Source: Echinarachnius parma
Taxonomy: Eukaryota > Echinodermata > Echinoidea > Clypeasteroida > Echinarachniidae
DNA: 64,000 nt
Direction of reading: 5' to 3'
Assembly: GCA_037951105.1 (NCBI GenBank)
Contig: JBAMJV010007438.1
Span: 1 to 64,000 of the forward strand
The position numbers and the translations under genes were made by a program. Positions 2,315-63,509 of this stretch are shown here, piece by piece (positions within the stretch are counted from its first letter, which is position 1; the number at the start of each line of letters is the position of its first letter). The notes beneath the pieces were generated by a model. The model ran no database searches and was not told the DNA's origin. It saw only the letters and a list, made by a program, of their open reading frames with translations.

Positions 2315-2411
2315 TCAGTTGTGTTTGCCTGTAGACGCCCTCGATGAGTCAATGTTCCACATCGTTGTACATTTGCCTTCTATTTCGAGCTGCCACTGGA
2401 GTAGGTTATCC
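2315..2411 (-). CDS. PDE10A: PDE10A-like coding exon 23 (stop codon)
   Basis: Joins in phase to give [13 protein letters not shown] (human RDNLSQWEKVI) and a short divergent tail ending STGKHN, then TGA. It is too short to appear in a long-open-frame scan. The stop is about 40 bp from a small inverted-repeat element. Confidence 0.82.
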
Positions 2412-4607
2412 CTGGAAATAACGGGAAAGGAATATAACTTAATTTTATAACTAACGGGCTTTTTGAAAATTCTAATAACCAAGGGGTGTTCCACAAAGAT
2501 CCTTTAATAAATTTAACTCTCAGTCGAGACATACAAATTATGGTAGGCCATTTGTAGCCTTGGAATATAATATATTCAAAAGTAAAAATGAAAGAACTTC
2601 AGACTTTTCAAAAATGTTGATAATATACAATTTTAATGATTTAAAATTATAACATTATACCCATTAAAAAAGAACTTTTACACACACAAAATCAAAGAAA
2701 CCAACGGCTTTCCATAATCTCTAAGTCCAACAAATGGCAATTGCTGATAATGCGATAATTCAACTGAATTTCTCTCCTAATATGTTAACTTCGTTGGGCT
2801 ATATCATTAAAAATAGATTGAACTGCTGTTATACTTCAAAAATGTTATACGGAAATGTTCGCATCTCGGAAGAAGAGAGGTGAACATTTGGTGATCCCTC
2901 TTCCATAGTGTCTTATCTGAACAAGTCACAATACCCACATTATTTGTTTGTTTGTTGAATGTATTAGTTTGACAAAGTAAGAGACTTACTATAGACATTA
3001 TTGCATCTAAAAATACGAGAGATGAACCATTGGTTCTCCCGCCCTCATAATTAAAAAAAAATATTTGTTTTTGTCTAAACAAATAACAATACCATAATTA
3101 TTCAATCGTTTCTTCGTTATGTACTTGGTCGGTTGTTTATTTGTTTGTTTGTTTTGTTTGTGTACTTGATTGGTTGGCCGCTTGTTTGTTTTATTATATG
3201 ACGTAAGAGACACTATGAAGACATACTTGCATCCTGAGAGCATCGGGGCAGATTCAGGGATCATTTCCACCAGGGAGGAGAAGCAAGGTACGCAGATATT
3301 ACTCAGGAAAGTCACCTGGATGAGAATATAAAATGAAGTAAATTTGCAACGATGCAAAACTAATAGTCACATGGAAAAACTGATAAATTTCGTGTCAAAG
3401 TTACACAATTATAATCGCAGGCTTTATAAACATCAAAGGTATCACGTTCGTGTTTTGAATGCGAAGCAAAGAAAGACTCGGGGAAAGTCCCCTGGAAAGG
3501 AATACAACATCAAAGGGATCTAATAACTTTGTTGACATGTGCAAAAAGTGATGAATGGTTGATGCAATGTATATTATTGTTATCTCATATGTCCACAGGG
3601 TATTGTGTGCAAATTTCAAGTCAAATGGACATTGCATGGCCAAGTAATGAGCGAAAATGCAAAATGATATTCAATAACTCACTGCACTCACTTTGTACAC
3701 AGAAGAAAAAACTCGCCCGGAGTTTTTTTTATCTGAATACTTCGATCGTACATATCTTTGTAACAAAAGGGAAATTTGAAAAACCGAACCTGTCCCATGA
3801 TTTTATTGTTAATACGAATACAACAAGATATGAGGGAACCGCTAGAATGAAAAATTTATTTTGAGGATTTGGACAATGTCCCTTTAAGTAAATTCGAGAA
3901 ATACGAGACATAACTAGTAACATGAACATTGATAAATTTTGTGTCAAAGTTACACAATTGTAACCGTACGCGTTATACTAATATCAAAGGTATCAAGTTC
4001 TTGTTTTGAATGCGAAGCAATGATATATCTCAGGAGAGTCCCCTGGAAGTTCAACATACAAATAAAATACATTCGAAGTATGTGGAACTAATACTATAGT
4101 TATATGAAAGCTGCTCAATTTAGTGTCATATAATTACACATGTTTTAACCATACACATTACAAACACCAGAGGCGTAAACCCGGTAGAATTGAAAGGCAG
4201 GGGAGGCCTATGGTACTCATAAGCGTCACCTGAATAGGAATTTGTACAATGAAGGAAAATATGCCTACCGCGAACACAACATTCACATTGATATGACACA
4301 GCTGCTAGAAAAGTAATTAAATATTTGATACTGACTTAAACAAAAAATAAACATAATACTTACAAATGAATTATGATATGGTTGATTAGAAGATATTTTT
4401 TGTTTTAGCATTGTAATGCATTCACACAGATGCAGCTGGTAGAAAAGTTATCAATTGAAATTCGGATACTGTTATCAAATGTAACAATAATATTCTGCAA
4501 ATAATGACCTACATCATTGTAACCCATATATCGGACGAGTAATACAAATTATAATTTAATATATTACTACGACCAATACTACTACTACTACGACGACGAC
4601 GACGACG

Positions 4608-4668
<61 letters not shown>

Positions 4669-4733
4669 GTAGTAGTACTACTCCTACTACTACTACTACT
4701 ACTACTACTGCTACTACTAATAATAATAATACG

Positions 4734-4812
<79 letters not shown>

Positions 4813-7800
4813 ATACTACTACTACTCCGCGGCCCAAACAACAAAAATGTAAATGCTAGCGGGGGGAAAATGACGAAAGAAATAGCCAAAAAATTATGAT
4901 ATTCCATGGAAAATCTTCATTTTTGGCCGGGCACCTTGGAATGGTAATGAGAAAACGAGTGCCTCCTCATAACAAAATTAGGCTTAGTGCTTCCTGAGCT
5001 ACGCCAAATTTTGCTTGTATGTTTTGGCTATATATAGGTTTGAAGTGTTGGTATTTGCAATATCTCTGTGTAGCTATTTTGCTCACAAGATACACATCGG
5101 CTGATGACCATAACATAAAGAGTAGTCATGTAGAAAGCTGTGCCCCCCTCCCCCCCCCCCCCCCCCCCATCAAAATGCAAAGGCCCCTGGTACACTCGGG
5201 GCTACACCACTTGTCTATTTGATTTCCAATTATTGTGCTAGGTTTGGAAGGTTTGTAGCTATTTTGCTCACAAGATACATAATAATGTATAAAAACGATC
5301 CTTGTTGCTATGGTTACCTGTTCTTGCGCGAGGTTCGGGAGGTTGTCCCTGTCCAGCATGATGAGAGGGACTTCTCCTCTCGCCTTCTCCTCATCGCCCT
5401 GCAAATAATGGCATATAAATTTAACATGATATAAACCATTTGATGGAAATGCAACATCATAAAATCAATACTAAGATCAACATAAGATGTGAACGTAGTT
5501 ACCATTAATAATACCGCCATATACATCATCTATATAGGGTATAATATGAATAAAATAAAGCAACTGTTTTTCGCTAAAAACAAACAACTTTTTGGGGGTG
5601 GTCATTGCTTAGGAATGGACCAAAACGTATAATTATGTATTTTGTATATATATATGACAATATAAAGGAAAAGTACAAAGGAAACAAACACAAACTGTCA
5701 GACAAGTTGACTCAAACAGCACAATCAATACCAGTTATGGAAGGGTCAAAATATGTGTGTGTGTGTTTTTGTTAACTTAAACATGAACCTTTCCTTTTTT
5801 ATTTTGTTTGTTATTCGCGATGAAAATATATGCAATTTGGGGCCAATCTCCAAGAAAAAGCATTCAATTAAATGCAATTTACTAATTTTCTCTGTAAATT
5901 TCTCTTTATTATGTTTATACTCAATACAACAACTTACTCAATCTAACAATTGTGCGAAAATTATTATAAGGATTGCTTTCTATGAATTAAAGGCATGCCT
6001 GTAAAGTGTCTAACTCCACGATTTTTTTTGGAGCTTCCTTGTTTCTCTTCTACCGTGTTGTTTAGCTTATGGTAAGAGAAGAATAAAATAGGGTTAGATT
6101 TTTTCAAATGTCCCTTTAGTATGAAGATAATTATCATTGAAATCTTTTATTTGAAAAGCGTTAGCAAACGCTTTTCAAATAAAGTACAATTGTCGTAGCT
6201 GAACACGTCCAGCCAGCGCGCGTGGGAAACCTTCCCGACCCGACTGAACTTTGAGCCGAGCGCGCGCAACTTCCATGAATTCTGTACCGTCTGTAAACAT
6301 ACACGGGTGCGGATATCGTCAAACGAATGATTATTACTGCAACAAATCTACGGCAGGCCATCAGTATTCGGTGATAAAATATGAACTCAATATTTTTTGT
6401 TTTCACTAGGTAAACAGTGATCGTTTTCTTTCAAACTTTCACAAATCTTTCAATTGTGTTTTACAATGATATTGATATAGGAATGAAGTCTCAAATGTCA
6501 TTTTGTGCAATATCTGACACTTTACAGGTATCACTTTAAAGGGGTAGTTTAGTTTTGGTAAGACTGAATTTTAGTAGCCAAAACCTGCACAGTAACCTTA
6601 TAAACTAATAGTTATAACTCCACCATGCTCAAAAGGTATACAAAATTACAAATGACTAAGTAAAAAGCCATTAAAACACAAGAGGGCGCTTTTTAAAAAG
6701 GCATTGGTTTCAACCATTTTTCATACAAAATTATGCATGTGATGTTTTATTAATATAATGATTAGATAGAGACATCATCAACAACTATTGCAAAAAAGCT
6801 TTTGAAAATTTTTGAAAAAGTGCAAGCATTTTTTTATTTTTTTCTAAAAATCATCTAATTATTTGGGCCCCAAATAATTATAAGATCAGATATATTTATT
6901 GATATTTCAGCCGTTTCTGGGTCGATTTTGACCAAATAAAGTTTATTCTGCCATTAAAATTGCATGTTCTCTCAAATTCGACACTCAGTTTTTCATTACC
7001 TCACAACAAAATTGTGATGTGCAGCTAAACTAAACTACCCCTTTAATATCGACCTTAAATTGATCTTAACATCGATTTCAAAAAAATAAAAAATTCTTAG
7101 TCTGATTTGATCCACCTTGTCAAATTCAACCAACTCAAGTTACACACTTTATCCCCGACTCTGTCAAATTCTAACAAATCACTTAAAACAAATGTAAAAC
7201 GTTCACATTTATCTTGTACCTTGTTGCTTAGCTTAGGGTAACCATGGTAACGGGAGATGAACTGGTTTTTTTCTCCTCTCAAATGTCTCCCAAATTTATG
7301 GACATTTATGCTTGAATTAAAAAGCGTTCTGGAATGCTTTTCGAATGTAGTTCAATTCAATGGACAGTACGTGATAAATTCTGACATAACATTGTACCCC
7401 TTTCACTAGATAACAGGCGTTCCTTTTCTATGAAACTATCACATATCATTCAGAAGACTGTTACAATCATTTATTATAATGATTGGAATCTAACATATTT
7501 GATGGGAAAACTCATGAAGTTGATAGATCCATTTAATAATAATATACCTGTGTATAGAACTCCTCGTAGAGACAATCGACAATCTCTTGTTGGACCGACC
7601 ACAGCTTCATTGTCGCACACAGGTCACAGGTCGTCATCAGGATCGACCGAACGCTGCTCCTGATCACAGGAAAGATGTTATACAATATTATCATCATGTG
7701 TTACCCATCTTTCGACATAACAGACAACGACATTTTTTAGAAATGACAACAAATGTGTAGTATCGTATAGTTGACGTTTTTGTTTCAAGTGACGGGTTGC

Positions 7801-10800
7801 ACAAATTTGGTGCTGACACTGCAATAGGTAATAGGTGATCATCATTATAAACCGAAAGCTGTTCTAATCACGGAAAAGACAACATCTTATAAATGCGACT
7901 CATACTAGATATAAAAAAGGAGTGCTCGTAATTATTTGTCGTTCTTAATCTTAATTGACCAAATCTTGGTGGTGGCACACGAGCCTCGCGTATTTATCAT
8001 TTTAGACCGTATGCGGCTACGAACTACATTTATTTTTTGGAGACCAAACATGTATTTGCTTCAGGCGATTGGTACTTTCTTTACCACATCGTAAAAAAGA
8101 TTGAGTATTTCAAAAAACCCATTGGTTAGCTTTATCATAATAGTTTAGCAAACCTTGGTGATAACATGCCATTTTACAATGACTATTGTAGGACAGTGGT
8201 AATGGGTTTAGACTCTAAGCTCAATTTAAAGTATAAACTAATTAACAGTAAGTTTTTACTTTTTATTGGGCTTTAACTGTCCCTAATTATAATCTAATAA
8301 TGCATTTATAGTGCGCCATGTATCTAGGTGCCCTATATAGTCAGAGGCGCATTATTACCCTTGGTCAACAGGTACAGTTCAAACCCGCACAATTATCTTG
8401 TGCACCATCTCAACTCCCAGGGGAGCATACTAGTAAAAATACAAACCTGTGTTTCTCGTTGGTCCAGTCTAGACTGTTGGAGACCAGGAGCTTGGAAAGC
8501 TCTTGGTGGGTGGAGAAGTAGAGGGCGAGATCCGTGGCCATGATCAGTTCCTCCATTATACTTGTCAACTATTTGTACAGAGAGGAGAAATTTAATCAAA
8601 TCAATAATCCGATGCATTTGAGTAATTTCATTAAATTATATCAGACTTGGTACACACCCTTTTCCCCTTGAATTTGGTTTAATGAAAAGATAATCAAATG
8701 GATCGCAACTAAAGAGTAAACAAATATAATCCATTCAAAGCTGAGTTCGCACATGAGCGAATGTTCGCAGCGTTTATGCCCATTAGTACGTAGTTTAAAA
8801 AAAAAGTCACTTAGTGGAGCGATTTTACAGATTTTTTGCGATTTTCGAGCTAGAGCAAGCGGATTACCGCTACATAAATATGAACGGTCTAAATATGAAT
8901 TACCACTAATCTGGTTTGTGTCACAAAAATTCGCTCATAATTATGTTTAGCTATCGTACACTTGTAATCATAAAATCGACGACTTGCTCCTTTAGTTGTC
9001 TCCCCGAAGATGGGAGGAGATGCTTTATCCGTCATGGGGGGGGGGGGGGGGGGGTGTTGCATAAAGAGTTGCGATTAAACGCAAGTCAGAAAATGCGCCT
9101 AAATTCGCAAATCTAATTAGCTAAAGTGCGCGTGTTTTCTCTTAATCAGAGACTATAGACTATTAAGCGCCTTTGTCTTAATGCAACACCCCCTGGTTGG
9201 CTATATTTTCTCCACAAAAAAGCGACTTACTTCCTTGAAGGAGTCCTCCGGGAGGTTTGAGAAGATGTTATGGCCATCTCGATTCAGGATATCCATGGTA
9301 ACGTTGATGTGATGCTTCTCCATCGTGGAGGAGGGGTACAGGACGCCCAGCGGTGTGGCGAACTTCTGGTGGAAGCTGTTGGTGATGGCCCGGTGGTCGA
9401 TGTCGTGGCAGATGCACGAGAAGAAGAGGGCTAGCATCTGGATTTCGAAATCAGGGTTAGGAAAAGTCATTCATTCAACCAAAGAGCATTGATACAGGAT
9501 TGTATAGGAATAATATGATAGAATGGTTTGTAAGAACAACTGATTAACTCTAGGATACCGTATCCTATATAGATTAAGCAGGGTAACAAAACAAAAACGG
9601 TATGTTTTAGGGGTCTATATAGTTAGGTGGTTGTGATATCGTCTATTGTCCACTAAACCAATGAACAACAGTAACGTCTAAAACAATAACACATGTCCGT
9701 CCATAATAACAAAAAATCAAATCAAATATTGACATCTACATCAGATGTGAACGTAGTGGGCGATATTGCATGCATAATAATAATGGTACACTACACCTTT
9801 GAGTAGGGACATACTACACGTCTCGATGGCATTTGCGTGGTAAACAAAGAGAAGAGAGAGGTGTACGCCTTCGATCCATAGTAGGGATTTCGGGGTATTA
9901 AAAACAGGTTTTAGAACGTTAAAGAAAACAGCTCATAAGCCCCCCACCCCATCTTTACACAAGTTGACGATGTCAAATGTTGCTTTTCGGCGCTTATCCC
10001 GTTCTTATCCCCTTATAATGTCAAATAAAACATGACTATTTTAAACAAAAGTGAAATGGAAACTACCGGGCAATTTAACAGATGGTTTTCCAGATCTTTC
10101 TATAATATTTCTGTTTTAAATCATATTATATTACAACATACCTCTATCTCCGTAAATTTCCCCTCGCTCCGCATAAGCAGCATGTACATGCAGTGAGCGA
10201 CATCGAATGCGTGACAGAAGTTGTGGAACGGGATGAGGCGGTAGTTCCTGCGCACTGTCAGAATAAACCTGGCCAGGGTGGGTAGGTCAAAGCTATAACA
10301 GAAGAAAAACAAAAGCGATTTCTCGTCGTTCATTTGTATTTCAAACGCACTCGACAAGAAATGACAGTGCGTAACACATGGCGTTTGTGGAATGGGATAA
10401 GGCGGTAGTTCTTGCGCACTGTCAGGATAAACCTGGCCAGGGTGGGTAGGTCAAAGCTAGAACAGAAGAAGAACAAAAGCGATTTCTCGTCGTTCATTTG
10501 TATTTAAAATGCACTCGACAAGAAATGGCAGTGCGTAACACATGGCCAGTTGTGTAATGAGATAAGGCGGTAGTTCTTGCGCACTGTCAGGATAAACCTG
10601 GCCAGGGTGGGTGAACGGGTCAAAGCTAAACAAGAAGAAGAACAAAAACGATTTATCGTCGTTCATTTGTATTTAAAACGCACACAACAAACCTGGCAGT
10701 GGGTTTTCATGGTCGTGGAATGGGATAAGCCGGAGTACTGTCAGGATATACCTGGCCAGGGTGGGGAGATCGAAGCTTGAAAAGAGAGACGGAATTATGA

Positions 10801-20962: not shown

Positions 20963-21005
<43 letters not shown>

Positions 21006-22127: not shown

Positions 22128-22199
22128 GATCACAGTGATTGATATCGAAACATATCAAAAAGTCATCAAAATAAGCAGTGACATGATTTAAAAAGAAAA

Positions 22200-22350
22200 A
22201 TAAATGAGAAATTGAATAAGCGCGCCATAAAATACCCGCGCAAACTGTCTCTATATTCGCGTATCAATCGCATTACTGAATCACTGATTGGCTCAAAGTT
22301 AGGAAACGCGCATGCGCAATACGCACGATTACATCCGGTCTGCGCGACAT
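22200..22350 (-). promoter_or_regulatory. Promoter-like GC-rich region of the PDE10A-like gene (NRF-1 motif, CCAAT box)
   Basis: A CpG-rich island in an AT-rich setting. It contains the palindrome GCGCATGCGC (22308-22317, a match to the NRF-1 consensus) and ATTGG (22287-22291, CCAAT on the minus strand), about 160-190 bp upstream of the start codon. Motif identity is known biology; promoter activity is inferred. Confidence 0.5.
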
Positions 22351-22679
22351 GTGATTTTGACCTGGCACAATTTCTTCTTGTTTTACAAACCAAAAAATAC
22401 GTCTGTGACCTCTGACGCCCGAGACATTTTTTTATTTTTTATTTTTTTTAATTGAAAACTATTACTAATCACAATGCAACATGATAACATATTTTCAATA
22501 AAATGTTTACAACAGAAGTGAGTAAGATAATCCGATACATTTTATGTAGGAAGAAGGTCAACCAAATTACTGACAATGACCCGAAGGGGCCATTCTCTAC
22601 AGTATCAACAGCAACACACAAACTCTGAGGCGTTCGCAAATTCATTTTTCGTCCGTACAACCACTGAATGAAATAAGCT

Positions 22680-23190: not shown

Positions 23191-23206
23191 AATCTAGAGT
23201 AAACCA

Positions 23207-24627: not shown

Positions 24628-24632
24628 TGTTG

Positions 24633-53100: not shown

Positions 53101-56100
53101 TCAAATCCAACTTTTTTTTAAATTTAAGACATTTCTCCTATGTAAATTTGCATGTCCGGTAATACGACACGTTCGGTAATACAACACCTTGCTATACATG
53201 TACATGTAGCAATGCAGATGTGTCTGGTATGAGTCACTGCACTTTTCTTATTTTTATTTTGCATTTGTCTCCTTTTTTAGATCCTGCTTGACAACGGAGG
53301 TGACGTGGGCTGGAAGAATGAAGATGAGGAGACACCCATCCTGCTGGCAGCTAAGAACGGACACACTGGGTTAGTTAACCTATTCCCTGCTAGATGTTGT
53401 GCTTCCCATAGAGTACAGAAGCCATGACGTCATAAAAACACTTTATTAGAATTTTCAAATTTGGACTTCATTTTCAGAAAGAGCATAACAAATAATGTCC
53501 AAATACCGAAAATCAAAGGAATAGGTTACGTATTGGCTGAGATATGCCCATCCGAATGAATTTTACTTCAATAGGCAATCAGTGTTATAGTGCACTGGTT
53601 CCTAAATGTAGGAACCAGTGCACTATAACACTGATTGCCCATTGACAAACAAAAATATTTCGGATGGGCATATCTCAGCCAATACGTAACCTATTCCTTT
53701 GATTTTCGGTATTTGGACATTATTTGTTATGCTCTTTCTGAAAATGAAGTCCAAATTTGAAAATTCAAACAAAAATGTTTATGACATCATTTATGACATC
53801 ACACTTCACCACTCTATAGAGTTAATACATGGCCCACCAGGTTCTCATCTATGGCAATACTACTACTATCAAAGCACATACCAAATGTAAAATTGATGGC
53901 ATGAATTTATACATGGAACTTAAAAAATGCATTGATTATCAAGTGTATACAGTGTTTAATAAAAGTGCTGATTGAGTGAACAAAAATGTACAGAATAATT
54001 TAGCCCTCAAAATTGTTCATATAATAAAGAATAAGTTTTTATATTGATATACAACATACTTCAGAGTGCTTTTTTTAATAGAGGCAGTATGAAAAAGTAA
54101 CCTCTAAAGTACAAAAAAAGGAGGAAATTTGTTTCCCTTTGCAAATCTCACACCAATAACGGTCTGTATACATGTACATACAGATATCAGCCATTTTTCA
54201 ACTGGTATGGTATTACAAAATTAATGCTGGTACTAAATAATTTAATATCCGCATCATTAAATCTTATGATTCTGGAAATAGAGATTGATGATTGAATAGT
54301 GCTGGTATTTCTGGACCATAAAAAGTGTCATTACATTGTAGGTGACATTTATCTATGAAAAAAAGAAAGAAACATATATATTTTAGTGAAACAGATATCA
54401 AAGTTTCTCCTGGAAAAGTGAGTTTCTCTTAAAAGAGATCTAGTATTAACTTAGTTAGCTTATTACCATTGCAAGAAAGGGTCGATAAAATGTGGTATTT
54501 CTTTACAATAAAAAGTGTCATTAGGTGACATTTATCTACAAAATAAAGAAAGAAACACATATTCTATTGATGGTTACTCTCTAAATAAACTTTGTTGTTT
54601 GAGAAAGAGAAGGGTGCTACAAATGGACTTTACGCCCTTCTGTTTCTCACTTTATGACTTCCGGTTCTGATCCTACACTTGCAATACGGCAATGTAAAGT
54701 TAAAAGTTGTAGTTAAAGTCCTTCCCGTGCCAATTTGGCACATATCTCCGATTCATTAGCCCTAGACCACACGTCTACTTTTACGTAGTGAAAGTTACAG
54801 AAGGGGGCTAGTCCTCTGGTAACTTGTGTGTTTAACTTTCCATTCGTCATTCTATAAATGTCAAGCGTCTGGCTAGAAGGCAGAAGGTACCATTTGAAAA
54901 GTCTTTGGTATGACTCTGTCAGGGTTCGAACCTGGGACCTCCCGTGCATGAGGCGGACACTCTAACCGCTGAGCCGCCATGCTCGGTGAAATGAAAAGTA
55001 GCCCCCCCCCCCAAAAAAAAAAAAAGTTTTAATTTAATTTTTTTCCCCTGGCTTGCAATACCTTCATCATGCAGTAGCAATCATTTTATGGGTCTGGTAC
55101 TCGAGAGATACCAGGATTCATCCTTGTCATTAAAATGTTATGGGACATCCCATAAAGATTGATGACTAAATTGACTGGAATTACGTGGCCATTATAAAGT
55201 CACTGCAGGACATTTTTAATGTGAGGATTGAAACCAACAAATATGGATTAGGTTTAAGTATGGATAAGATTAAAGTGTGAACATAGTCTTTGTATAAAAT
55301 TCCTTTATATCAGTACAAGTGGCATTCTTAGTTTCTGAATTTATATTTTGATAATGTCACAAATTAATTTGGGAAAAGGTGAAAGACTAGTGAATGTTCC
55401 ACATTTGTGTTCTTTTTCTTATATAACATTGTTAATAGTATGTGTGGTTGCGGTTGCACCATGTGAGATGGGTGGATTGGTGAGTCCTGAAAAGGACTAT
55501 GGTAGTCCTACAAAGGACTATGGTAGTCCTAGAAAGGACTGTTGGTGTAGTCCTGAAAAGGACTGTTGGTATTCTTTCTAGGAGAGTCCTAAAATGAACT
55601 GTTGGTAGTCCTAGAAAGGACTGTTTGTAGTCCTAGAAAGGACTGTTGGGATAGTCCTGAAAAGGACTGTTGGTATTCTTTCTAGGAGAGTCCTAAAAAG
55701 GACAGTTGTTAATAGTGTGATTTTTGTTTTGTCCCTACCTTGATTTGATTAACTTCATGATAAGTATTAATTTTATAATGTCATCACTGCTCAATCTGTT
55801 TTCATCTTGATGTTCTTTAGAGTTGTGATGGAGTTTGTGAAGCATGATGATTTGACCATCCATGATGAGGATGAGAACCAAACACCAGGGCTCTACTTGG
55901 CTTCTACGACCGGTCAAGCAGTTCAATTCCGTGATTTGATTAATTTATGATGAGTATTCATTTTCCAATTGTATAATTGTTTGACCTCTCTCTGTAACTA
56001 TTTTCATCTTGATGTTCTTTAGAGTTGTGATGGAGTTTGTAAAGCACGATGACTCAACCATCCATGATGAGGATGAGAATTCTAACACGCCTCTCCATCT

Positions 56101-59100
56101 GGCCGCCACGACCGGTCAAGCAGTTAAATTCTGTGATTTGATTATTTTATGATGAGTAGTCATTTTCCAATTGTATAATTGTTTGACCTCTCTCTGTTAC
56201 TATTTTCATCTTGATGATCTTTAGGGTTGTGATGGAGTTTGTAAAGCACGATGATTCGACCATCCATGATGAGGATGAGAATTCTAACACCCCTCTCCAT
56301 CTGGCCGCCACGACCGGTCAAGCAAAGACGGTCAGGGCCTTGATAGATGCTGGTGCAGATATTGAATCAAGGTAAGTGACTCCTAAAGCAGGGCTCGACA
56401 CTAGCACTTGCCCTGTTGCCCGGGGCAAGTACAATTTCATAAATGAAAAAAGAAAAAAAAGCAAATGTAACTTCTTGTGTGTACATCTCATCTACAAACA
56501 AGAGAGAAATTTGTCAAGCAGATCGAGCTACCTAGGACTATTAATTTGTATATAATTATTTTCAATTTTTTCTGTTTGGGCAACTCAAATTTAAAAAATT
56601 CATGATTTCACTTGCCAAAATGGGCAAGTACAAATACAAGGTAGTGTGGAGGCTCGCCTAAAGAGCCATGTGGATGTGTGCACTCTTGTACTTGAGCGTA
56701 GAAAACATTGGGAACTCTTTACCACAAATCATTATTTCAATAATAATCTCAATCTTTCAATTTGTGTAAACTAAAATCACAACCAAAATATGAAGATATG
56801 TTGTAATGTGAAAAACTGCATTTTTTCAGTATTTGTATCACATTTGTTCTAATGTGAAAGACGACGATAAAAAAGATACTGTTCAAAATGTTGAGCGCTG
56901 AGTGGGTCCCCCTTATGATCATGGTCACTCTGTACCACAAACTGCCTCTTCAGATTTGTGTATTTTATTCTCATTTTATATTAGGAATCAGCAGCTGTGG
57001 ACTCCCCTGGACTGTGCAGCTCACAGTGGCTGGGTGAAGACAGCCTATGCCCTGCTCGAAAACGACAGTCCTATTGACCCTACTGATAAAGCAAAAGTAA
57101 GTCAAACACATCTTGTATTCTGTTAAAGGGATAGTTGAGGTTTGGTATAGAGAGTACAGTTTTGGTCAAACTGAATTTTAGTAACCAAAACCTGCACCAT
57201 TACATTACAAACTAATAGTTATAACTCAACCATGCTCGAAAGGTACACAAAATTACAAACTACTAAGTAAAAAGCCTGTAATCATTAAAAAAAGAGCAGT
57301 TAAAACTCAAGAGGGCGCTACCTAAAAACTCTATGGCCAGTATTCTACTAAATTTATCAACTTAGGCTAGACTAAAAACGACTTCCCAGTAACCAGTTAA
57401 ACCAGTTCAGACAAAGGGAATTTAACAATCACATTGATGGTTGTCATGCACCACTTCTGATTGTTTCTTGTCATTAGACATCCAGACAATTGGATGCTTG
57501 ACATTCCAATGGCATGCTTGAACATGTCTCTAGTTATACAGGGTGGCCCCAAAAAAATGGAACGGGGCACGTCCAAAATATACTTACAACATGAACATAT
57601 CCATCGGATAGGGTGTCCTTTCCAATTAACAACGATACCAAGAAAAGTAATCTTGGACGTGTAGTTTTTGTTTTAGGGCGCTTTGAGTGAGACCATGTCA
57701 GGTTCCTATTTTTGTCAATTTTTACCAAGTCAGTGTCTGATAAATGAGACTCACTGCCCGTCATACTATTGACCAATTATGCCTATTCTCTCGGGCACCG
57801 CTGGGCACACAGCTGAATGCACACTAACAATGGCGCACGGAATGCTCGCATGTTCAATGGTATGTCTGCAATAAGTCTCATTTATTTCTGAACCGATTTT
57901 GATCAATAAAGTTTATTCTGTCATTAAGATTGTATGCTCTTTCAAATTTGACACTCAGTTTTCATTATTATTTTGTGCAGCGCCCTCTATACCAAAACTG
58001 AACTGTCCCTTTCACCTTGTGACTTGAGTTAGGGAATTAATACGTTTAGTGGCACAGTCTCCTTTTATCCAATCTGTTCACTTTTGGGCTAATATTACTA
58101 GGATTGTATAATGAATATTTGTAATTTAAATTTTGTTCTAGGTCACTCCACTACATCTGGCTGCCACCAGTGGCCACGTAGAAATGGTAAAACACAGTTG
58201 GAGTGGCATCATGAGCTTTCTCTCACAAACGCAGAATGGAAAAATCTTTTTTTCACTTACTGCACCAAGTTCCACTCAGAAATGATTTTGGCTGTGATAT
58301 TTAATGCATTATGTTAATACTTATTATGATATAATTGTTTAAATATTTGTAATTCATTTGTTTTTAATACTAGGTCACTCCACTACATCTGGCTGCCACC
58401 AGTGGCCACGTAGAAATGGTCAATTACTTGTTGGGAGTGGCATGATGAGCTTTCTTAGTTCTAAAGGCAGAATAGATGAATATAAGAATCTTATTTTTTC
58501 GCTAATGGCACCAAGTTGAAGTTCCACTCAGAAATGATTTTGGCTGTGATATTTAATGCATTATTTTAATATTACTACAATGAAGTCCTTCCATATTTGT
58601 AATGTTTATTTTTTCTCTAGGTCACTCCGCTTCATCTGGCTGCCACCAGTGGCCACGTAGAAATGGTCAAACTCTTGTTGGAGTGGCATGCGGATTTATC
58701 CTTGGCAAACACAGAACAGAAGAACTGTCTCGACATGGCCATCGAAAATGGACACAAGTGAGTTTGTTTTACTTTCATTGGGGGAGAAATATTTTATAAG
58801 AAATGTCATCATGGTACATGTACATACATGCATCAAAGTTCATTGATAAGAAAAGTTAGAAGACTGGAGTAGTCTAGATAGTTGGACAGATACAAGCATT
58901 ATGTGTATTAAATTTAGTTTCCTTTGTATTTATAATTATAACCTGATATTGAAGTAAGTGTATGCATTGTTGTTATGCCTCCGCAACGAAGTAGCCGGAG
59001 GCATTATGTTTTCGGGTTGTCCGTCCGTCCGTACGTCCGTACGTCCGTACGTACGTCCGTACGTACGTCCCGTTCTCGTGATCGCGTTATCTCAAGAACC

Positions 59101-62100
59101 GATTGACGGATTCTCGCCAAACTTGGTTCATGTATGTATCCTGGAGTGCCAATGATCTGATTAGATTTTGGGGTCATGAGGTCAAAGGTCAAAGGTCACA
59201 GGGCTCATTATATATGCAAAAATAGCTCGTGATCGCATTATCTCAAGAACCAATGGACAGATTCTCACCAAACTTAGTCCAAGTATGTATCTTAGGGGGC
59301 CGATGAACTGATTAGCTTTTGGGGTCATGAGGTCAAAGGTCAAAGGTCACAGGGCTCATTATATATGCAAAAATAGCTCGTGATCGCGTTATCTCAAGAA
59401 CCGATTGACGGATTCTCACCAAACCTTGTCCAAGTATGTATCTTGGGGGGCCAATGAACTGATTACATTTTGGGGTCATGAGGTCAAAGGTCAAAGGTTA
59501 CAGGGCTCATTATGCAAAAATAGCTCGTGATCGCGTTATCTCAAGAACTGATTGACGGATTCTCACCAAACTTGGTTCATGTATGTATCCTGGGGTGCCA
59601 ATGATCTGATTAGATTTTGGGGTCATGAGGTCAAAGGTCAAAGGTCACATGGCTCATTATATATGCAAAAATAGAGCTTTGATCGCGTTATCTTAAGAAG
59701 TGATTGATGGATTTGCACCATACTTGGTACATGTATGTATCTTGAGGTGACTAATAACTGGTTAGATTTTTGGGTCATGAGGTCAAAGGTCAAAGGTCGC
59801 AGGGCACAATATATATGCTAAATTAGCTTGTAATTGCAAAATCTCAAGAACTGAATGTCATATTTCAATCAAACTTGGTACCTGAATGTATCACAGGAAG
59901 CCATTGTAGCCAATAGATTTTGGGGTCATAAGGTCAAAGGTCAAGGTCACATGATTCGTTATGCCAAAATACCTTATTAATTGCAATATCTCATAAACCA
60001 GTTGATAAATAACCATCAAACTTGGTACCTTCATTGTATTTGTATCTTGTAATTTTAACTATTAAAATTGAGTTGAAGAATTAATTCAGTGCATGTTGAT
60101 TTTTGGGGCTTGATATAAATCACGCAATGGCGGAGGCATCATATTCGACTGCGCGCAGTCGAAGATCCATCTAGTTTTATTCATTTGTTCAATTTGTTTA
60201 AAATGTGCATCTACCACAGTATCTGATCACAATGACAATTTTCCTGTTCAAAGACTGGTAAAGAAATATCTTCAGATCTTGGAAAGTCCAATGCATGTCA
60301 TATATCCAAATATAATTATTTATCATGAATTGAAGGTAGTCTTCCCTCAACGCCTTGCACACAATGCAAACATGTGTACTGGCTCAGTGTTATGTTCATG
60401 TAGTGCACACAGCCAATCTTATTCTGCGATGAGCAACAGTGGTAGAGATTGGTAGTATATATGTTTCCATTCTGCGATGAGCAACAGTGGTAGAGATTGG
60501 TAGTATGTTTCCATTCTGCGATGAGCAACAGTGGTAGAGATTGGTAGTATGTTTCCATTCTGCGATGAGCAACAGTGGTAGAGATTGGTAGTATATATGT
60601 TTCCATTCTGCGATGAGCAACAGTGGCAGAGATTGGTAGTATGTTTCCATTCTGCGATGAGCAACAGTGGTAGAGATTGGTAGTATGTTTCCATTCTGCG
60701 ATGAGCAACAGTGGTAGAGATTGGTAGTATATATGTTTCCATTCTGCGATGAGCAACAGTGGCAGAGATTGGTAGTATGTTTCCATTCTGCGATGAGCAA
60801 CAGTGGTAGAGATTGGTAGTATGTTTCCATTCTGGGATGAGCAACAGTGGTAGAGATTGGTAGTATGTTTCCATTCTGGGATGAGCAACAGTGGTAGAGA
60901 TTGGTAGTATGTTTCCATTCTGCGATGAGCAACAGTGGTAGAGATTGGTAGTATGTTTCCATTCTGGGATGAGCAACAGTGGTAGAGATTGGTAGTATGT
61001 TTCCATTCTGGGATGAGCAACAGTGGTAGAGATTGGTAGTATGTTTCCATTCTGGGATGAGCAACAGTGGTAGAGATTGGTAGTATGTTTCCGTCTGGGA
61101 TGAGCAACAGTGGTAGAGATTGGTAGTATGTTTCCATTCTGGGATGAGCAACAGTGGCAGAGATTGTTAGTATGTTTCCATTCTGGGATGAGCAACAGTG
61201 GTAGAGATTGGTAGTATGTTTCCATTCTGGGATGAGCAACAGTGGCAGAGATTGTTAGTATGTTTCCATTCTGGGATGAGCAACAGTGGTAGAGATTGGT
61301 AGTATGTTTCCATTCTGCGATGAGCAACAGTGGTAGAGATTGGTAGTATGTTTCCATTCTGGGATGAGCAACAGTGGTAGAGATTGGTAGTATGTTTCCA
61401 TTCTGGGATGAGCAACAGTGGTAGAGATTGGTAGTATGTTTCCATTCTGGGATGAGCAACAGTGGTAGAGATTGGTAGTATGTTTCCATTCTGGGATGAG
61501 CAACAGTGGTAGAGATTGGTAGTATGTTTCCATTCTGGGATGAGCAACAGTGGTAGAGATTGGTAGTATGTTTCCATTCTGGGATGAGCAACAGTGGTAG
61601 AGATTGGTAGTATGTTTCCATTCTGGGATGAGCAACAGTGGTATAGATTGGTAGTATGTTTCCATTCTGGAATGAGCAACAGTGGTAGAGATTGGTAGTA
61701 TGTTTCCATTCTGGGATGAGCAACAGTGGTAGAGATTGGTAGTATGTTTCCATTCTGGGATGAGCAACAGTGGTAGAGATTGGTAGTATGTTTCCATTCT
61801 GGGATGAGCAACAGTGGTAGAGATTGGTAGTATGTTTCCATTCTGGGATGAGCAACAGTGGTAGAGATTGGTAGTATGTTTCCATTCTGGGATGAGCAAC
61901 AGTGGTAGAGATTGGTAGTATGTTTCCATACTGGGATGAGCAACTGTGGTAGAGATTGGTAGTATGTTTCCATTCTGGGATGAGCAACAGTGGTAGAGAT
62001 TGGTAGTATGTTTCCATTCTGGGATGAGCAACAGTGGTAGAGATTGGTAGTATGTTTCCATCTGGGATGAGCAACAGTGGTAGAGATTGGTAGTATGTTT

Positions 62101-63509
62101 CCATTCTGGGATGAGCAACAGTGGCAGAGATTGTTAGTATGTTTCCATTCTGGGATGAGCAACAGTGGTAGAGATTGGTAGTATGTTTCCATTCTGGGAT
62201 GAGCAACAGTGGCAGAGATTGTTAGTATGTTTCCATTCTGGGATGAGCAACAGTGGTAGAGATTGGTAGTATGTTTCCATTCTGCGATGAGCAACAGTGG
62301 TAGAGATTGGTAGTATGTTTCCATTCTGGGATGAGCAACAGTGGTAGAGATTGGTAGTATGTTTCCATTCTGGGATGAGCAAAAGTGGTAGAGATTGGTA
62401 GTATGTTTCCATTCTGGGATGAGCAACAGTGGTAGAGATTGGTAGTATGTTTCCATTCTGGGATGAGCAACAGTGGTAGAGATTGGTAGTATGTTTCCAT
62501 TCCCATGCATGACAATCTTTACAAAGAGAGAGTGCAATTATCTAAATGTTGTAATTGTTGCTTTCAATTAGGGATGTTGCCATGGCGATCGTCAGTCATA
62601 GTAAGTGGAGAGAGGCCATGTACTCTGAGAGCTTGGACCAAGTCACTCTGACCAGGACTACGCCTTTGCGCAAACTCATCAAGAGAATGCCAGGTAAAGT
62701 AGAGTTTTATACAGACCTCAATATATACATGTAGCTTTAACTCCTTGAGTGCCAAGCTCGCATTTTTGCGAGTTACAATACACACAAATGCCATAGATCC
62801 CTGGCACTCACAGTGTCAAATAAACAGAGGCAAATAAAGTTGGAAATCATTTGTTTCACATCGTTTTGGGGGCAAGTAAAGTCTGAAAATGCATTATTGT
62901 TCTTGTCCCGCACGGTCCAGTAGCGCCATTTAAACATTTATTATCTATTTATTTATTTATTCTCCACTCAGGGGATGGTTGGTTTGCCCTTGTCAGCTAC
63001 AAGCTGTTTTTCAAAAGGGTCCAAGCCAAGATAAAAAATATGCAAAATTTGTAATAATCAATACATATATCAATAGACAACGAATGCACACATCAAATCG
63101 TTTGTACAATGTAATATGTTATGTGATAATTGTTGTAATAGATGTTGCTGAACAGGTATTCAACAATACATATTCATAACAATAGACAACGAATGCACAC
63201 ATCAAATCGTTTGTATAATGTAAAATATTATGTAATTGTTATTTGTTGTAATAGATGTTGCTGAACAGGTATTCAACAATCCATATTCATAACAATAGAC
63301 AACGAATGCACACATCAAATCGTTTGTATAATGTAAAATGTTATGTAATTGTTATTTGTTGTATTAAATAGATGTTGCTGAGCAGGTATTCAACAACTGC
63401 CTGAAAGAGAATGACAAGTCCAGAGAACACCCCGACTATTGTATCACGTTTGACTATGAACTCCTCGACGACATGTTTTCTCACTGGAACCAGGACTCCC
63501 AAGGCCAAG
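28502..63509 (+). CDS. TRPA1: TRPA-type ankyrin cation channel gene, 5' half (pore exons lie beyond the window)
   Basis: Sixteen GT-AG exons join in phase into 733 residues counted from the ATG at 28955. From about residue 64 they carry 16-17 ankyrin repeats (recurring TPLHLAA and related cores), as in TRPA channels. The repeats are followed by SKWREAMY, TPLRKLIKRMPDVAEQVFNN and ITFDYELLDDMF, a linker I associate with the TRPA1-like branch. Such channels are Ca2+-permeable and respond to irritants or temperature in other animals. The six membrane helices are not in the window, so channel identity rests on the repeat count, the linker and gene layout. A long ankyrin protein without a channel is the alternative. 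Introns range up to 14 kb. Confidence 0.85.
29206..29347. mobile_element. Perfect 124-bp hairpin element with 9-bp target duplication
   Basis: Arms 29215-29274 and 29279-29338 are perfect 60-bp reverse complements around a 4-nt loop (CCGA). The 9-mer ATGATTATG flanks both sides exactly (29206-29214 and 29339-29347). Perfect pairing implies a very recent insertion or strong constraint. A 9-bp duplication suits a Mutator-type element. It lies in TRPA intron 1. Confidence 0.85.
29932..30100 (+). CDS. TRPA1: TRPA exon 2: first ankyrin repeats
   Basis: Encodes VARDGDVVTLKRLLGQ and then DENGSSPLHYAARYNHLPVL. It follows a pyrimidine-rich acceptor and ends in phase 1 before GTAATG. Confidence 0.9.
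30112..30412. mobile_element. Tigger/pogo-like MITE with a nested hairpin insertion
   Basis: GTGGCCACCTGTCCATAACG and GTTGACTGTA are the ends of the family seen at 51284-51466. A 93-bp hairpin (about 30191-30283, arms ATTCTCTACCAAGACGTGCC and mirror) interrupts it. Confidence 0.6.
30546..30729. mobile_element. Small inverted-repeat element
   Basis: GGGGTGTATTCTGAAAACGA on the left is mirrored by TCGTTTTCAGAATACACCCC on the right; 184 bp, non-coding, about 50 bp before TRPA exon 3. Confidence 0.7.
30783..30880 (+). CDS. TRPA1: TRPA exon 3: ankyrin repeat
   Basis: Encodes EVNRVGEGGLVPLHFACKFK and then a Ser-rich loop ending in ISDSE. Donor GTGAGT. Confidence 0.88.
30881..33316 (+). other. First part of TRPA intron 3, no gene seen
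   Basis: AT-rich intron. Between 31450 and 31930 it holds a segment with TGACGTCATCT, GATGACGCGTCATGACG and GGGAACGCCCC that looks like a dispersed repeat, but I could not find its ends. Nothing else recognisable. Confidence 0.5.
33317..33571 (+). repeat. Two-copy tandem repeat upstream of the TRPA microexon
   Basis: GATTTTAGCAAGTGTTT, TTTTCAGTCTGAAAGT and AAGATCATCAATTT occur in the same order at about 33329-33410 and 33430-33555. The second copy runs into the acceptor of the 24-nt exon. The first ends near GATGATGCAG, a possible decoy acceptor. Confidence 0.7.
33578..33601 (+). CDS. TRPA1: TRPA exon 4: 24-nt microexon
   Basis: Eight codons, EGVTEEDE, between a good acceptor (ttcccaccatag) and GTAACG. 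It keeps phase 0 on both sides and extends an acidic loop inside an ankyrin repeat, so it could be skipped without breaking the frame. The intron just upstream is duplicated in tandem. Confidence 0.65.
34506..34730. mobile_element. Small inverted-repeat element
   Basis: TACCGTAAACCGAGTGACTT pairs with the right end (CACCCCAGTTTACGGTA), and GACTTTGGCCACTTTTTGAG is mirrored further in; 225 bp, non-coding. Confidence 0.7.
35172..35652. mobile_element. Tigger/pogo-like MITE with a nested palindrome
   Basis: ACAGTCAAACCGGATGGACG opens and AAGTTTGACTGTA closes the family. About 35495-35600 holds an insertion with paired GCCCTCGTGAA/TTTCACGAGGGC blocks. Confidence 0.55.
36625..37235. mobile_element. 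Family D element with another inverted-repeat element inside
   Basis: Family D ends resemble CAGGGCTCGACACTAG and TTAGTGTCGAGGCT and carry CTTGCCC/GGGCAAG pairs. Within it, 36673-36904 has its own ends, AGCCCGGTCACATATCAACG and mirror. Other family D copies: 45163-46012, 50915-51006 (fragment), 56390-56665 and a variant at the right edge. Confidence 0.6.
38880..39190. repeat. Repeat cluster with two poly-G tracts
   Basis: The phrases AAAGTACGTACGCACAAGGG and AAAGTGCGTACAGGGG each run into poly-G, and GTAGGGGCCATCTACAAAGT has an inverted partner, TTTGTAGATGGCCCCTTATG. A small inverted-repeat element is likely. Confidence 0.55.
40603..42511. mobile_element. 1.9 kb TTA-flanked element with dispersed GCGACGGGACGGAA motifs
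   Basis: Ends AGGGCCCGTTACACATTCA and mirror, exactly flanked by TTA at 40600-40602 and 42512-42514. This matches PIF/Harbinger target duplications. No transposase frame is present. Eight copies of GCGACGGGACGGAA lie inside: forward near 40813, 40981, 41178, 41194 and 41971, reverse near 41783, 41802 and 42138. Subterminal CCGTGTTG/CACGG words also repeat. Confidence 0.8.
42650..42840. repeat. Dispersed repeat with poly-G and poly-C core
   Basis: A G run (42663-42684), TTCACGTGCCCCCCCCC, an A-rich stretch, then CCCCAAATAATTTGCGTGCC. It mirrors the layout at 25047-25210. Confidence 0.6.
43630..44725. repeat. GATA microsatellite and a three-copy AT-rich tandem repeat
   Basis: (GATA)n at about 43632-43655 abuts AAATGGTTTTATTCATATAA, which looks like the reversed tail of a retroposon. 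From about 44050, 44330 and 44555 the ordered words TTAAAGTCCTTAA, AGTTTAAAATAGTGGCG and ATAAATCATTTCAATTGGCA repeat, giving three diverged copies. Confidence 0.65.
45163..46012. mobile_element. Family D element split by a family C element
   Basis: GCACTTGCCCTATTTCCCGG starts it and GGGCAAGTTGTT with AGTGTGGAGGCT ends it. The family C copy at 45311-45690 sits inside, followed by an AAT microsatellite at about 45805-45827. Confidence 0.6.
45311..45690. mobile_element. Family C MITE-like element (copy 2)
   Basis: TTAAAGGGACTTAGTAACAT onward, reverse orientation relative to 3511-3888, ending in CACATGTCAACAAAGTTACT. Inserted in a family D element, so it is the younger of the two. Confidence 0.7.
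47664..47843 (+). CDS. TRPA1: TRPA exon 5: ankyrin repeat
   Basis: Encodes SVILYLESKGADVNAKD and then GVTPLHMAAIRENETATSEL. Phase 0/0, donor GTGAGT, after a 14 kb intron. Two decayed copies of its 3' part lie directly downstream. Confidence 0.92.
47909..48245 (+). pseudogene. Two clipped copies of TRPA exon 5 with its donor-side intron
   Basis: Copies starting near 47909 and 48099 repeat the 3' part of exon 5 (GADVNAKD-type through LLS) plus the start of the intron, spaced about 185-190 bp. The first has an in-frame TAG where the exon has AAG but keeps GAT|GTGAGT. The second reads GADVNAQDIYGVTPLHMAAI, but its donor has become GATTGAGT. Neither has an acceptor. Confidence 0.85.
48449..48658 (+). 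CDS. TRPA1: TRPA exon 6: two ankyrin repeats
   Basis: Encodes MTPLHMACTHGSDVIAKMLI and then GTPLHAAAMEGHVEIVRLLY. Phase 0/0, donor GTATGT. Confidence 0.94.
49134..49227 (+). CDS. TRPA1: TRPA exon 7: ankyrin repeat
   Basis: Encodes MLTDTNNDQSTPLHLAVDSG and then EPEVVKMCLERG. Ends in phase 1 before GTAAGT. Confidence 0.93.
49663..49858 (+). CDS. TRPA1: TRPA exon 8: two ankyrin repeats
   Basis: Encodes STPLHAACIAGDVDIVKLLL and then ATPLHRACYFNRFKVVEFLL. Ends in phase 2 before GTGAGT. Confidence 0.94.
50068..50145 (-). tRNA. tRNA-Ala(AGC)-like sequence, probably SINE-derived
   Basis: The minus strand shows a D-arm (GCTCAGTCGGTAAGAGC), an anticodon arm CCGGT-CTAGCAA-TCCGG with anticodon AGC, and a T-arm TCGGGTTCGAATCCCG. 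The acceptor stem pairs poorly. An inverted copy of its 3' half lies 65 bp away, so a tRNA-derived repeat is more likely than a working gene. Confidence 0.45.
50200..50278 (+). repeat. Inverted copy of the tRNA-like 3' half
   Basis: From CCGGTCTAGCAATCCGGAGG to ATTTACTTTGCTC it is the near-exact reverse complement (about 65 bp) of 50049-50114. Together the two form a palindrome with a loop of about 95 bp. TRPA intron 8. Confidence 0.75.
50330..50520. repeat. Family C fragment
   Basis: AAAGATATCTAGTAACTTTG, then TGATCCGATGTGTCCATTGA and AAATAGTAAGTGATGATGCA, resemble the first half of family C. The right end is TAGATCCCTTTAA. Confidence 0.5.
50915..51006. repeat. Family D fragment
   Basis: TGCTAGTTGCCCAATCGGGC and CAAGTGCTTGTGTCGAGCCC match the left end of family D in reverse. 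Directly upstream of TRPA exon 9. Confidence 0.55.
51044..51227 (+). CDS. TRPA1: TRPA exon 9: ankyrin repeats
   Basis: Encodes FTPLLIAASAGHSATIKVLL and then a diverged repeat, DKTSIFWTAEENKPEALM. Donor GTGAGA. Confidence 0.92.
51284..51466. mobile_element. Tigger/pogo-like MITE, complete copy
   Basis: CAGTCAAACCTGTCTTAGTG and ACAGGTTTGACTG form inverted ends, with paired GGCCACC/GGTCACC words within; 183 bp, non-coding. Reference copy for the interrupted ones at 16527, 30112 and 35172. Confidence 0.7.
51942..52049 (+). CDS. TRPA1: TRPA exon 10: ankyrin repeat
   Basis: Encodes ALLEHPLANEIMELSDRYDN and then TPLHVAAEKGYLKIVK. Phase 0/0, donor GTAAGC. Confidence 0.93.
52083..52228. repeat. ATC/GTC-rich microsatellite
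   Basis: CATCATC, GTCATC and AACATC triplets directly after TRPA exon 10. They extend the exon's open frame with Ile/Val residues that are not part of the protein. Confidence 0.9.
52331..52680. mobile_element. Family C MITE-like element (copy 3)
   Basis: TTAA at both ends; TTTAGTCTTTGTTGGCATGT to ATTTGGACAATG and ATCCC. Same orientation as 3511-3888. Confidence 0.7.
53281..53369 (+). CDS. TRPA1: TRPA exon 11: ankyrin repeat
   Basis: Encodes ILLDNGGDVGWKNEDEETPI and then LLAAKNGHT. Ends in phase 2 before GTTAGT. Confidence 0.9.
53408..53821. mobile_element. Foldback element with arms of about 160-200 bp
   Basis: Nearly perfect arms meet at a 4-nt loop near 53605-53608 (GGTTCCTA/TAGGAACC). 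The pairing runs out through AATACGTAACCTATTCCTTT and GGACTTCATTTTCAGAAAGA. Outer parts with TGACGTCATAAA/TTTATGACATCA are looser. Non-coding, just after TRPA exon 11. Confidence 0.85.
54917..54986 (-). repeat. tRNA-like (CAT anticodon) SINE head
   Basis: The minus strand reads GGCTCAGCGGTTAGAGTGTC, a loop CTCATGC with anticodon CAT, and CCAGGTTCGAACCCTG as T-arm. The acceptor stem does not pair. A tRNA-derived SINE is more likely than a functional tRNA-Met. Confidence 0.5.
55483..55705. repeat. Minisatellite of AGTCCT..AAAGGACT palindromes
   Basis: About nine units such as AGTCCTAGAAAGGACT joined by ATGGT, GTTGGT or GTTGGTATTC. Two larger blocks, each ending GTATTCTTTCTAGGAG, show a second level of duplication. 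Each unit is itself a small hairpin. Confidence 0.85.
55821..56224 (+). pseudogene. Two clipped copies of TRPA exon 12
   Basis: Acceptors at 55820 and 56022 precede VVMEFVKHDDSTIHDEDEN-type sequence. Spacing is 202 bp each time up to the real exon at 56225. Both copies stop matching after ACCGGTCAAGCAG and continue into the intron sequence that precedes the next copy, losing the last part of the exon and its donor. The first copy is also altered inside (QTPGLYLAS for SNTPLHLAA). Confidence 0.88.
56225..56371 (+). CDS. TRPA1: TRPA exon 12: ankyrin repeat
   Basis: Encodes VVMEFVKHDDSTIHDEDENS, NTPLHLAATTGQAKTVRALI and GADIESR. It is the last and only complete member of three tandem copies spaced 202 bp apart. 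Donor GTAAGT. Confidence 0.93.
56390..56665. mobile_element. Family D element (copy 4)
   Basis: CAGGGCTCGACACTAGCACT to GTAGTGTGGAGGCTCGCC, with CTTGCCC/GGGCAAG pairs at both ends. About 275 bp, directly after TRPA exon 12. Confidence 0.65.
56985..57096 (+). CDS. TRPA1: TRPA exon 13: ankyrin repeat
   Basis: Encodes NQQLWTPLDCAAHSGWVKTA and then YALLENDSPIDPTDKAK. Donor GTAAGT. Confidence 0.92.
57127..58011. mobile_element. Family B element with an inserted Tc1-like half element (copy 4)
   Basis: AGGGATAGTTGAGGTTTGG follows TTAA on the left and CCAAAACTGAACTGTCCCT ends it on the right. About 57350-57875 is foreign, including one arm of the Tc1-like foldback. Confidence 0.65.
57540..57875. 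mobile_element. One-armed copy of the Tc1-like foldback
   Basis: CAGGGTGGCCCCAAAAAAAT onward matches the left arm of 16634-17160 through TCGGATAGGGTGTC and ACCATGTCAGGTT. The right arm is missing. Confidence 0.7.
58142..58456 (+). pseudogene. Two clipped copies of TRPA exon 14
   Basis: Copies start at 58142 and 58374 after intact acceptors, 232 and 247 bp before the next copy. Both read VTPLHLAATSGHVEMV and then diverge: the first runs into a shifted frame and the second reaches a stop after NYLLGVA. The real exon is at 58621. Confidence 0.88.
58621..58757 (+). CDS. TRPA1: TRPA exon 14: ankyrin repeat
   Basis: Encodes VTPLHLAATSGHVEMVKLLL, then EWHADLSLANTEQKNCLDMA and IENGH. It is the complete member of three tandem copies. 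Donor GTGAGT. Confidence 0.93.
58975..60174 (+). mobile_element. Helentron-like non-autonomous element with a tandem-repeat core
   Basis: The 5' end has TATGCCTCCGCAACG and a GCC(T)CCG/CGGAGGC stem. The 3' end has GGCGGAGGCAT, an 18-nt palindrome TCGACTGCGCGCAGTCGA (60145-60162), 8 nt, then CTAGT. The core has about five units of roughly 160-180 bp (GATCGCGTTATCTCAAGAAC, GGGGTCATGAGGTCAAAGGT) that decay rightwards. A hairpin followed by CTRRT and subterminal inverted repeats are Helitron/Helentron hallmarks; similar repeat-cored elements are known in molluscs and flies. Confidence 0.6.
60416..62506. repeat. 2.1 kb minisatellite of about 47 units of 44 bp
   Basis: Unit core GATGAGCAACAGTGGTAGAG with ATTGGTAGTATGTTTCCATT. 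The left fifth mostly has CTGCGATG and several 50-bp units with an extra TATATATG-type insert; the rest mostly has CTGGGATG. Because 44 is not a multiple of three and the unit has no minus-strand stop in any frame, long minus-strand frames (up to 595 codons) appear. They are artefacts. Lies in TRPA intron 14. Confidence 0.95.
62572..62693 (+). CDS. TRPA1: TRPA exon 15: end of ankyrin domain and linker
   Basis: Encodes DVAMAIVSHSKWREAMYSES and then LTRTTPLRKLIKRMP. Ends in phase 1 before GTAAAG. It lies just after a 2.1 kb minisatellite. Confidence 0.92.
63142..63371 (+). pseudogene. Two clipped copies of TRPA exon 16
   Basis: Acceptor plus ATGTTGCTGAACAGGTATTC occurs at 63142 and 63255, then the real exon at 63372. 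The copies keep about 26 bp of exon and then return to the intron unit (CATAACAATAGACAACGAAT). CAG|GTATTC inside each copy is a possible weak donor. Confidence 0.85.
63372..63509 (+). CDS. TRPA1: TRPA exon 16: pre-membrane linker, last exon in the window
   Basis: Encodes DVAEQVFNNCLKENDKSREH and then ITFDYELLDDMFSHWNQDSQ. Donor GTAAGA; the next exon is outside the window. It is the complete member of three tandem copies spaced 113 and 117 bp apart. Confidence 0.92.

Follow-up and report, generated by a model that had tools for sequence, protein, structure and literature searches.

Five coding exons of two genes in a 64,000-nucleotide stretch of DNA (the window, taken at its whole length) are flanked on one side by tandem arrays of clipped copies of their own edges, and these arrays are very probably mirage-type minisatellites, in which local duplication struck by chance and one working copy was kept. 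Coding exons were placed by tblastn of homologous proteins together with splice signals, and relatives were compared at the protein level only. A PDE10A-like gene occupies the minus strand, with about 21 exons located by tblastn of homologous proteins between 22127 and 2315, and a TRPA1-like gene on the plus strand starts near 28.5 kb and continues past the window end. The concatenated exon translations find their best matches in predicted PDE10A-like proteins of Lytechinus variegatus (64%) and Diadema setosum (68%), and for the PDE exons two sea stars come next, below the sea urchins, at 49-50%; each TRPA1-like exon has its counterpart in a Lytechinus TRPA1 homologue, with identities mostly of 63-86%. 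Judged from its sequence, the window is echinoid-like. The PDE10A-like and TRPA1-like proteins of Lytechinus (P0001 and P0241) are both listed with a longest contig of 66,439,262 bases, and those of Strongylocentrotus (P0008 and P0242) with one of 45,798,072 bases, so that the linkage of the two genes is probably conserved in both urchins.

The five arrays were delimited by self-BLAST and TRF at 10219-10785, 47721-48242, 55738-56324, 58114-58690 and 63051-63396, and the similarity of their copies is beyond chance (E 4e-81 or better by self-BLAST; best pair per array, 4e-81 to 5e-131). Each crosses one edge of a coding exon, one in the PDE10A-like gene and four in the TRPA1-like gene. The initial annotation had claimed clipped neighbouring copies for at least five coding exons of two genes, spaced at about 113-247 bp, and both parts of that claim hold, with five arrays recovered and measured offsets of about 105-250 bp. 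The complete exons and their copies are as follows.

10141-10292, minus strand: P15, catalytic exon of the PDE10A-like gene, sole complete copy (tblastn, 79% Lytechinus, 84% Diadema)
10386-10785, minus strand: three clipped copies of the P15 5' edge, the exon beginning at about 10456, 10625 and 10775, unit of 164 bp (self-BLAST E 2e-130, alignments)
10830-10935 (about), minus strand: an earlier, degraded copy that covers most of P15 and carries deletions, its far end being less certain (local alignment, tblastn trace)
47664-47843, plus strand: T4, TRPA1-like ankyrin exon, complete (tblastn, 81% Lytechinus TRPA1; donor GAT/GTGAGT)
47906-48242, plus strand: two clipped copies of the T4 3' edge, running on into the downstream intron, unit of 185-191 bp (self-BLAST, alignments)
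55738-56114, plus strand: two clipped copies of the T11 5' edge, the exon beginning at 55821 and 56023, unit of 191-202 bp (alignments)
56225-56371, plus strand: T11, TRPA1-like exon, complete (tblastn; donor AAG/GTAAGT)
58114-58450, plus strand: two clipped copies of the T13 5' edge, the exon beginning at 58142 and 58374, unit of 225-250 bp (alignments)
58621-58757, plus strand: T13, TRPA1-like ankyrin exon, complete (tblastn, 80% Lytechinus; donor CAA/GTGAGT)
63051-63279, plus strand: two clipped copies of the T15 5' edge, each with 25 bp of exon, unit of 105-117 bp (alignments)
63372-63509, plus strand: T15, TRPA1-like exon, complete (tblastn, 73% Lytechinus; donor AAG/GTAAGA)

P15 itself has the acceptor TATAG/C and the donor GAG/GTATGT. 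Four of the five arrays involve the 5' edge of the exon and have their clipped copies upstream, the unit running from the upstream intron's end through the acceptor and 25 to 92 bases into the exon; the fifth, at T4, involves the 3' edge, with copies downstream and a unit made of the last 123 exon bases, the donor and the intron start. This arrangement follows from tandem duplication, which leaves the complete exon at the last copy when the unit spans a 5' edge and at the first copy when it spans a 3' edge. There are two clipped copies in every TRPA1-like array and three in the P15 array, and neighbouring copies are offset by about 164 bp (P15), 185-191 bp (T4), 191-202 bp (T11), 225-250 bp (T13) and 105-117 bp (T15). 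The donor GT is intact in the first T4 copy and lost in the second. The older, near-whole-exon copy of P15 means that some copies are more than an edge. Weaker traces lie beside three other PDE exons.

12229-12278, minus strand: 50-bp interior fragment of P12, 86% identical, 408 bp from the exon at 12600-12800 (self-comparison)
7821-7894, minus strand: decayed 5'-edge copy of P18, whose exon is at 7548-7659 (alignment; p 4e-7)
4179-4254, minus strand: decayed 5'-edge copy of P20, whose exon is at 3227-3318 (alignment; p 2e-4)

A fragment had previously been attributed to exon 14 of the phosphodiesterase gene; the 50-bp fragment is there, and whether P12 is that exon is uncertain.

Exons are not preferred as sites of duplication within the window. 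Eleven contiguous arrays were hand-picked from the self-BLAST results, leaving aside a foldback element, a 44-bp minisatellite and four spaced pairs (1241/1646, 3364/3915, 12229/12637, which involves an exon, and 51548/52516). Five of the 11 touch one of the 36 mapped exons against 3.4 expected (P=0.22), and together they contain 392 bp of exonic sequence against 411 bp expected. An earlier list of 35 exons, which lacked a TRPA1 exon at about 30780-30877 and differed at the first and several further exon ends, gave 3.3 expected (P=0.21; rotation test 0.22). When only the exon-dense part of the window (47.6-63.6 kb) is considered, four of seven arrays touch an exon, with 2.8 expected (P=0.28). 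Self-alignment of exon edges with 1 kb of flank against intron sequence, an approach put forward in the initial annotation, was run on the window with the 35-exon list, using 80 shuffles per edge and 40 per tile; exon edges were unfiltered, and intron tiles were excluded if they were of low complexity or lay in either of the two elements left aside above (foldback and 44-bp minisatellite). Within 1 kb, 8/70 exon edges, belonging to seven exons, and 44/317 intron tiles have a significant copy (p<0.002). Fifteen of these 44 tiles sit on clipped copies, and once they are set aside the intron rate is about 29/300 (Fisher P=0.66 against 8/70 edges); at a looser cut (p<0.01) the counts are 14/70 and 59/317. 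A first screen of whole exons (z>5) had scored 8/35 exons and 13/70 control segments, and was dropped for the edge test because the match of T6 was to the neighbouring T7, a repeat at the protein level, and because the foldback element and the 44-bp minisatellite accounted for nine of the 13 control matches. An excess at exons is rejected by array overlap, by exonic bases and by the tile test, although in one 64-kb window these tests would hardly reveal a modest excess. The initial proposal of a genome-wide tendency that strikes exons by chance is supported as far as this window goes, where the exon rate is no higher than that of introns. The form of the hits is also what blind duplication would give, since edge-only is the commonest outcome when random units touch an exon (73% one edge only, 17% the whole exon, 10% inside the exon) and five edge-only arrays out of five have P=0.21 under random placement.

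Introns carry comparable arrays, which serve here as controls.

33320-33482, no strand assigned: intron-only tandem array, period 104 (self-BLAST)
44030-44714, no strand assigned: intron-only tandem array, offsets 218-273 (self-BLAST)
59075-60030, no strand assigned: intron-only array of 151-bp units, 5.8 copies, with a AGGTCAAAGGTCAAAG motif (TRF, self-BLAST)

Among the intron pieces named in the initial annotation as behaving in the same way, 33317-33571 and 44050-44725 correspond to the first two of these arrays, and the signals in 5034-5290 and 6030-7470 are fainter (p 4e-4 for tile 5000, 7e-4 for tile 6350 and 3e-6 for tile 7400). Repeats of other kinds are also present. The 44-bp minisatellite (60421-62502; 47 copies, 96% matching) lies inside a TRPA1-like intron, and the large foldback structure at 25927-27400, whose arms reach 97% identity and which contains internal repeats, is probably a mobile element. 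More self-complementary stretches, at 29215-29338, 53424-53790, 34534-34718 and 50041-50286 (75-98%), are perhaps small foldback elements, and 1018-1777 holds irregular repeats of a 10-base AACGTAGT-type motif bordered by short inverted ends.

Substitutions distinguish the complete exon from its copies. They were polarised by three-way comparison of the real exon with two copies per array (the third PDE copy being left out), and changes specific to the real exon, or common to the copies against it, were assigned to the functional-exon branch. This branch has 13 synonymous and 7 nonsynonymous changes (P=0.0008 against a neutral expectation of 0.288 synonymous), and changes found only in copies number 18 synonymous and 26 nonsynonymous, one stop included (P=0.09). 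The copy-only changes lean slightly towards synonymous (41% against 29%), partly because the branch common to the exon and its youngest copy is included. Unpolarised pairwise counts with the third PDE copy included give 51 synonymous to 35, the same event being counted repeatedly. The pattern is most simply explained if the complete exon is under purifying selection and its copies decay almost neutrally, and the contrast of 13:7 with 18:26 agrees with the earlier claim that selection keeps one complete copy. Divergence is graded: the T15 copy closest to its exon has about 1% mismatches in the intron part, a figure that rises to at least a quarter for older copies, the youngest copies being about 94-98% like the exon copy and the oldest down to about 75%. 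A rule by which the functional exon is always next to the newest copy finds little backing, as it fits three of the five arrays, about chance level. The closest pair includes the functional copy in the arrays at 10219, 55738 and 63051 and is ambiguous or otherwise in the other two, which, with only two to three clipped copies in each array, says little about homogenisation of inner units.

How the copies are treated by the splicing machinery can be approached from their signals. All 12 upstream copies examined have AG at the acceptor position when read by eye, and they are without the exon's own donor. Scored with a donor matrix, the best GT that follows them reaches at most 6.1, and in 4/12 none exceeds 3. 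Real donors (n=19) score 4.5-12.6 on the same scale, and for five of the 12 copies the GT reaches 4.5-6.1, at least as high as the lowest-scoring real donors, so the argument from a missing partner donor is weak for those five. Taken together, these signals suggest that clipped copies may be skipped through exon definition. By eye, the duplication junctions have possible microhomology of 3-4 bp (T15 array) and possible filler (T11 array). In the proposed origin, tandem duplications of 100-250 bp would arise anywhere in host DNA through some replication or repair step, and repeated rounds at the same place would enlarge each array. A unit that happened to cross an exon-intron boundary would leave the exon whole at one end of the array, with the clipped copies lying to the other side of it; a clipped copy, keeping one splice site and lacking the other, would be passed over by exon definition and stay intronic, after which selection would preserve the complete exon and the clipped copies would decay.

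Proteins of relatives were screened for internal repeats, with 15/20 matching residues required, which puts the 8-residue copy of the exon at 63372-63509 below reach. The screen flags 7/120 listed proteins, P0001 included, and four of 18 echinoderm proteins (P0001, P0003, P0243 and P0245), of which P0243 and P0245 show ankyrin periodicity only. In P0003, a predicted pde-5-like protein of Strongylocentrotus, a stretch is duplicated almost exactly with a period of 161 residues, probably through an assembly or gene-model error. P0001 is the predicted PDE10A-like protein of Lytechinus, and in it the exon homologous to P12 has its final stretch of about 30 residues repeated in frame with a 48-residue period. 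Its spacer resembles, by eye, the start of the following intron (GFLKTL, compared with VFMTYL after the donor in the window), and the 50-bp P12 fragment starts within a codon or two of the corresponding position. A repeat of this type is absent from P0002 of Diadema and from the partial P0008 of Strongylocentrotus. At the 15/20-residue threshold, no repeat was found in the TRPA1 proteins P0241 (Lytechinus) and P0242 (Strongylocentrotus), and P0243, a close TRPA1 homologue, yielded nothing matching the copies in the window. The window itself gave no sign of a duplicated segment yielding a spliced new intron or added exon sequence. Exon-edge copies may sometimes enter a protein or its annotation; the initial suggestion that they are a source of new exons and a trap for annotation gains one predicted protein, P0001, in its favour and has P0241 and P0242, without repeats in this screen, and P0243, with ankyrin periodicity only, against it. 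A broader reading, possible if doubtful, makes mirages the product of a mutational process that acts continually in the genomes of echinoids, perhaps of many deuterostomes, and would keep supplying spare splice sites and exon edges. A minority of these would become new introns or exon extensions, as suggested by P0001, in which a 3'-edge copy of the P12 homologue appears to be read through in frame, at the same exon that left a fragment in the window.

Three other explanations of the arrays have been weighed against chance duplication with one copy kept. False local duplications could be left in an assembly by merged haplotypes or repeats, and the nearest T15 copy, with one mismatch and eight gapped columns over its intron part, is as close as an allele; the duplication in P0003 itself resembles such an artefact. 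Most copies, however, are 4-25% off the exon in graded steps, with gaps and some stops, which haplotype merging would not produce, making an artefact extremely unlikely. A special proneness of exon edges to duplication, for example through splicing- or transcription-linked breaks, could be read from five strong cases among 36 mapped exons and from the preponderance of 5' edges (six of the eight significant ones, the 3' edge of P20 being among the eight). It is nonetheless highly unlikely, with no excess over introns by array overlap, exonic bases or the tile test and a 6:2 split that is within chance.

Function of the copies themselves, as alternative exons or as acceptor decoys under selection, would account for the acceptor AG retained throughout the upstream copies, and also for the exonic blocks of the T13 copies, which are near-identical while parts of the introns diverge. 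The T13 copies share near-identical intron blocks too, however, so that such blocks are not exon-specific, and the stops and gaps in the copies, their near-neutral substitution pattern and the repeat-free TRPA1 proteins of Lytechinus and Strongylocentrotus (15/20-residue screen) make a functional role exceedingly improbable. Chance duplication with retention of one working copy is the preferred reading. With several exon-edge arrays of graded age in 64 kb, early steps of intron gain would become observable, namely the birth rate of edge copies, the way splicing ignores them and the frequency of recruitment, in intermediates that are rarely seen side by side. The arrays also carry a warning for annotation, as clipped copies with an intact splice site adjoin real exons.

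Structures of this kind have been described in lancelets, where minisatellite-like tandem repeats over exon-intron boundaries were named 'mirages' in the globin genes BflGb6 and BflGb9, with Adh3 also cited (PMC3087553), and where a further case is reported in PGBD5, with globin, Adh and troponin C cited (PMC3902484). Units measure 150-160 bp in BflGb6 and 157 bp in BflGb9 (PMC3087553) and 60 and 108 bp in PGBD5 (PMC3902484), within a published range of 10-160 bp. In BflGb6 the units are 81-100% identical and number six and three in two haplotypes, and the inner units are homogenised with the boundary units left out, a feature described there for that gene only (PMC3087553). Copy number varies in the lancelet mirages, whose traits take in haplotype differences in copy number or somatic instability, and splicing is reported as undisturbed (PMC3087553; PMC3902484), and the authors of the globin study suspected that mirages are general in cephalochordates (PMC3087553). 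As far as these descriptions go, the arrays in the window agree with them in having units of comparable size and one authentic exon beside clipped copies, and in the edges involved, a 5' boundary in one lancelet gene and a 3' boundary in another corresponding to four 5' edges and one 3' edge here. They differ in that the host is echinoid-like, that five strong cases occur within 64 kb with intron arrays as controls, and that three of the five units (185-250 bp) exceed the published 10-160 bp. The lancelet cases come with haplotype copy-number and splicing data, whereas the arrays here are known from the DNA of one assembly, and it is on structure in that DNA that they are classed as mirages. 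A literature search, which was not exhaustive, brought up no recognised report of exon-edge tandem arrays in echinoderms; that these are the first in the phylum is a guess, and what is new is possibly the likely phylum and the density of cases in one window, the structure itself being already published.

Tandem genomic duplication is described in a review as the only route by which intron gain has been demonstrated in vivo (PMC3443670). In potato RdRp, a tandem duplication over intron 1 and exon 2 created a new intron (PMC4974935); according to that account a cryptic donor was used and exon sequence was added, whereas the copies in the window appear to stay intronic. The standard tandem-duplication model of intron gain likewise starts from local tandem duplication within genes, as here, and differs in that an internal AGGT site within an exon is duplicated to give a working intron.
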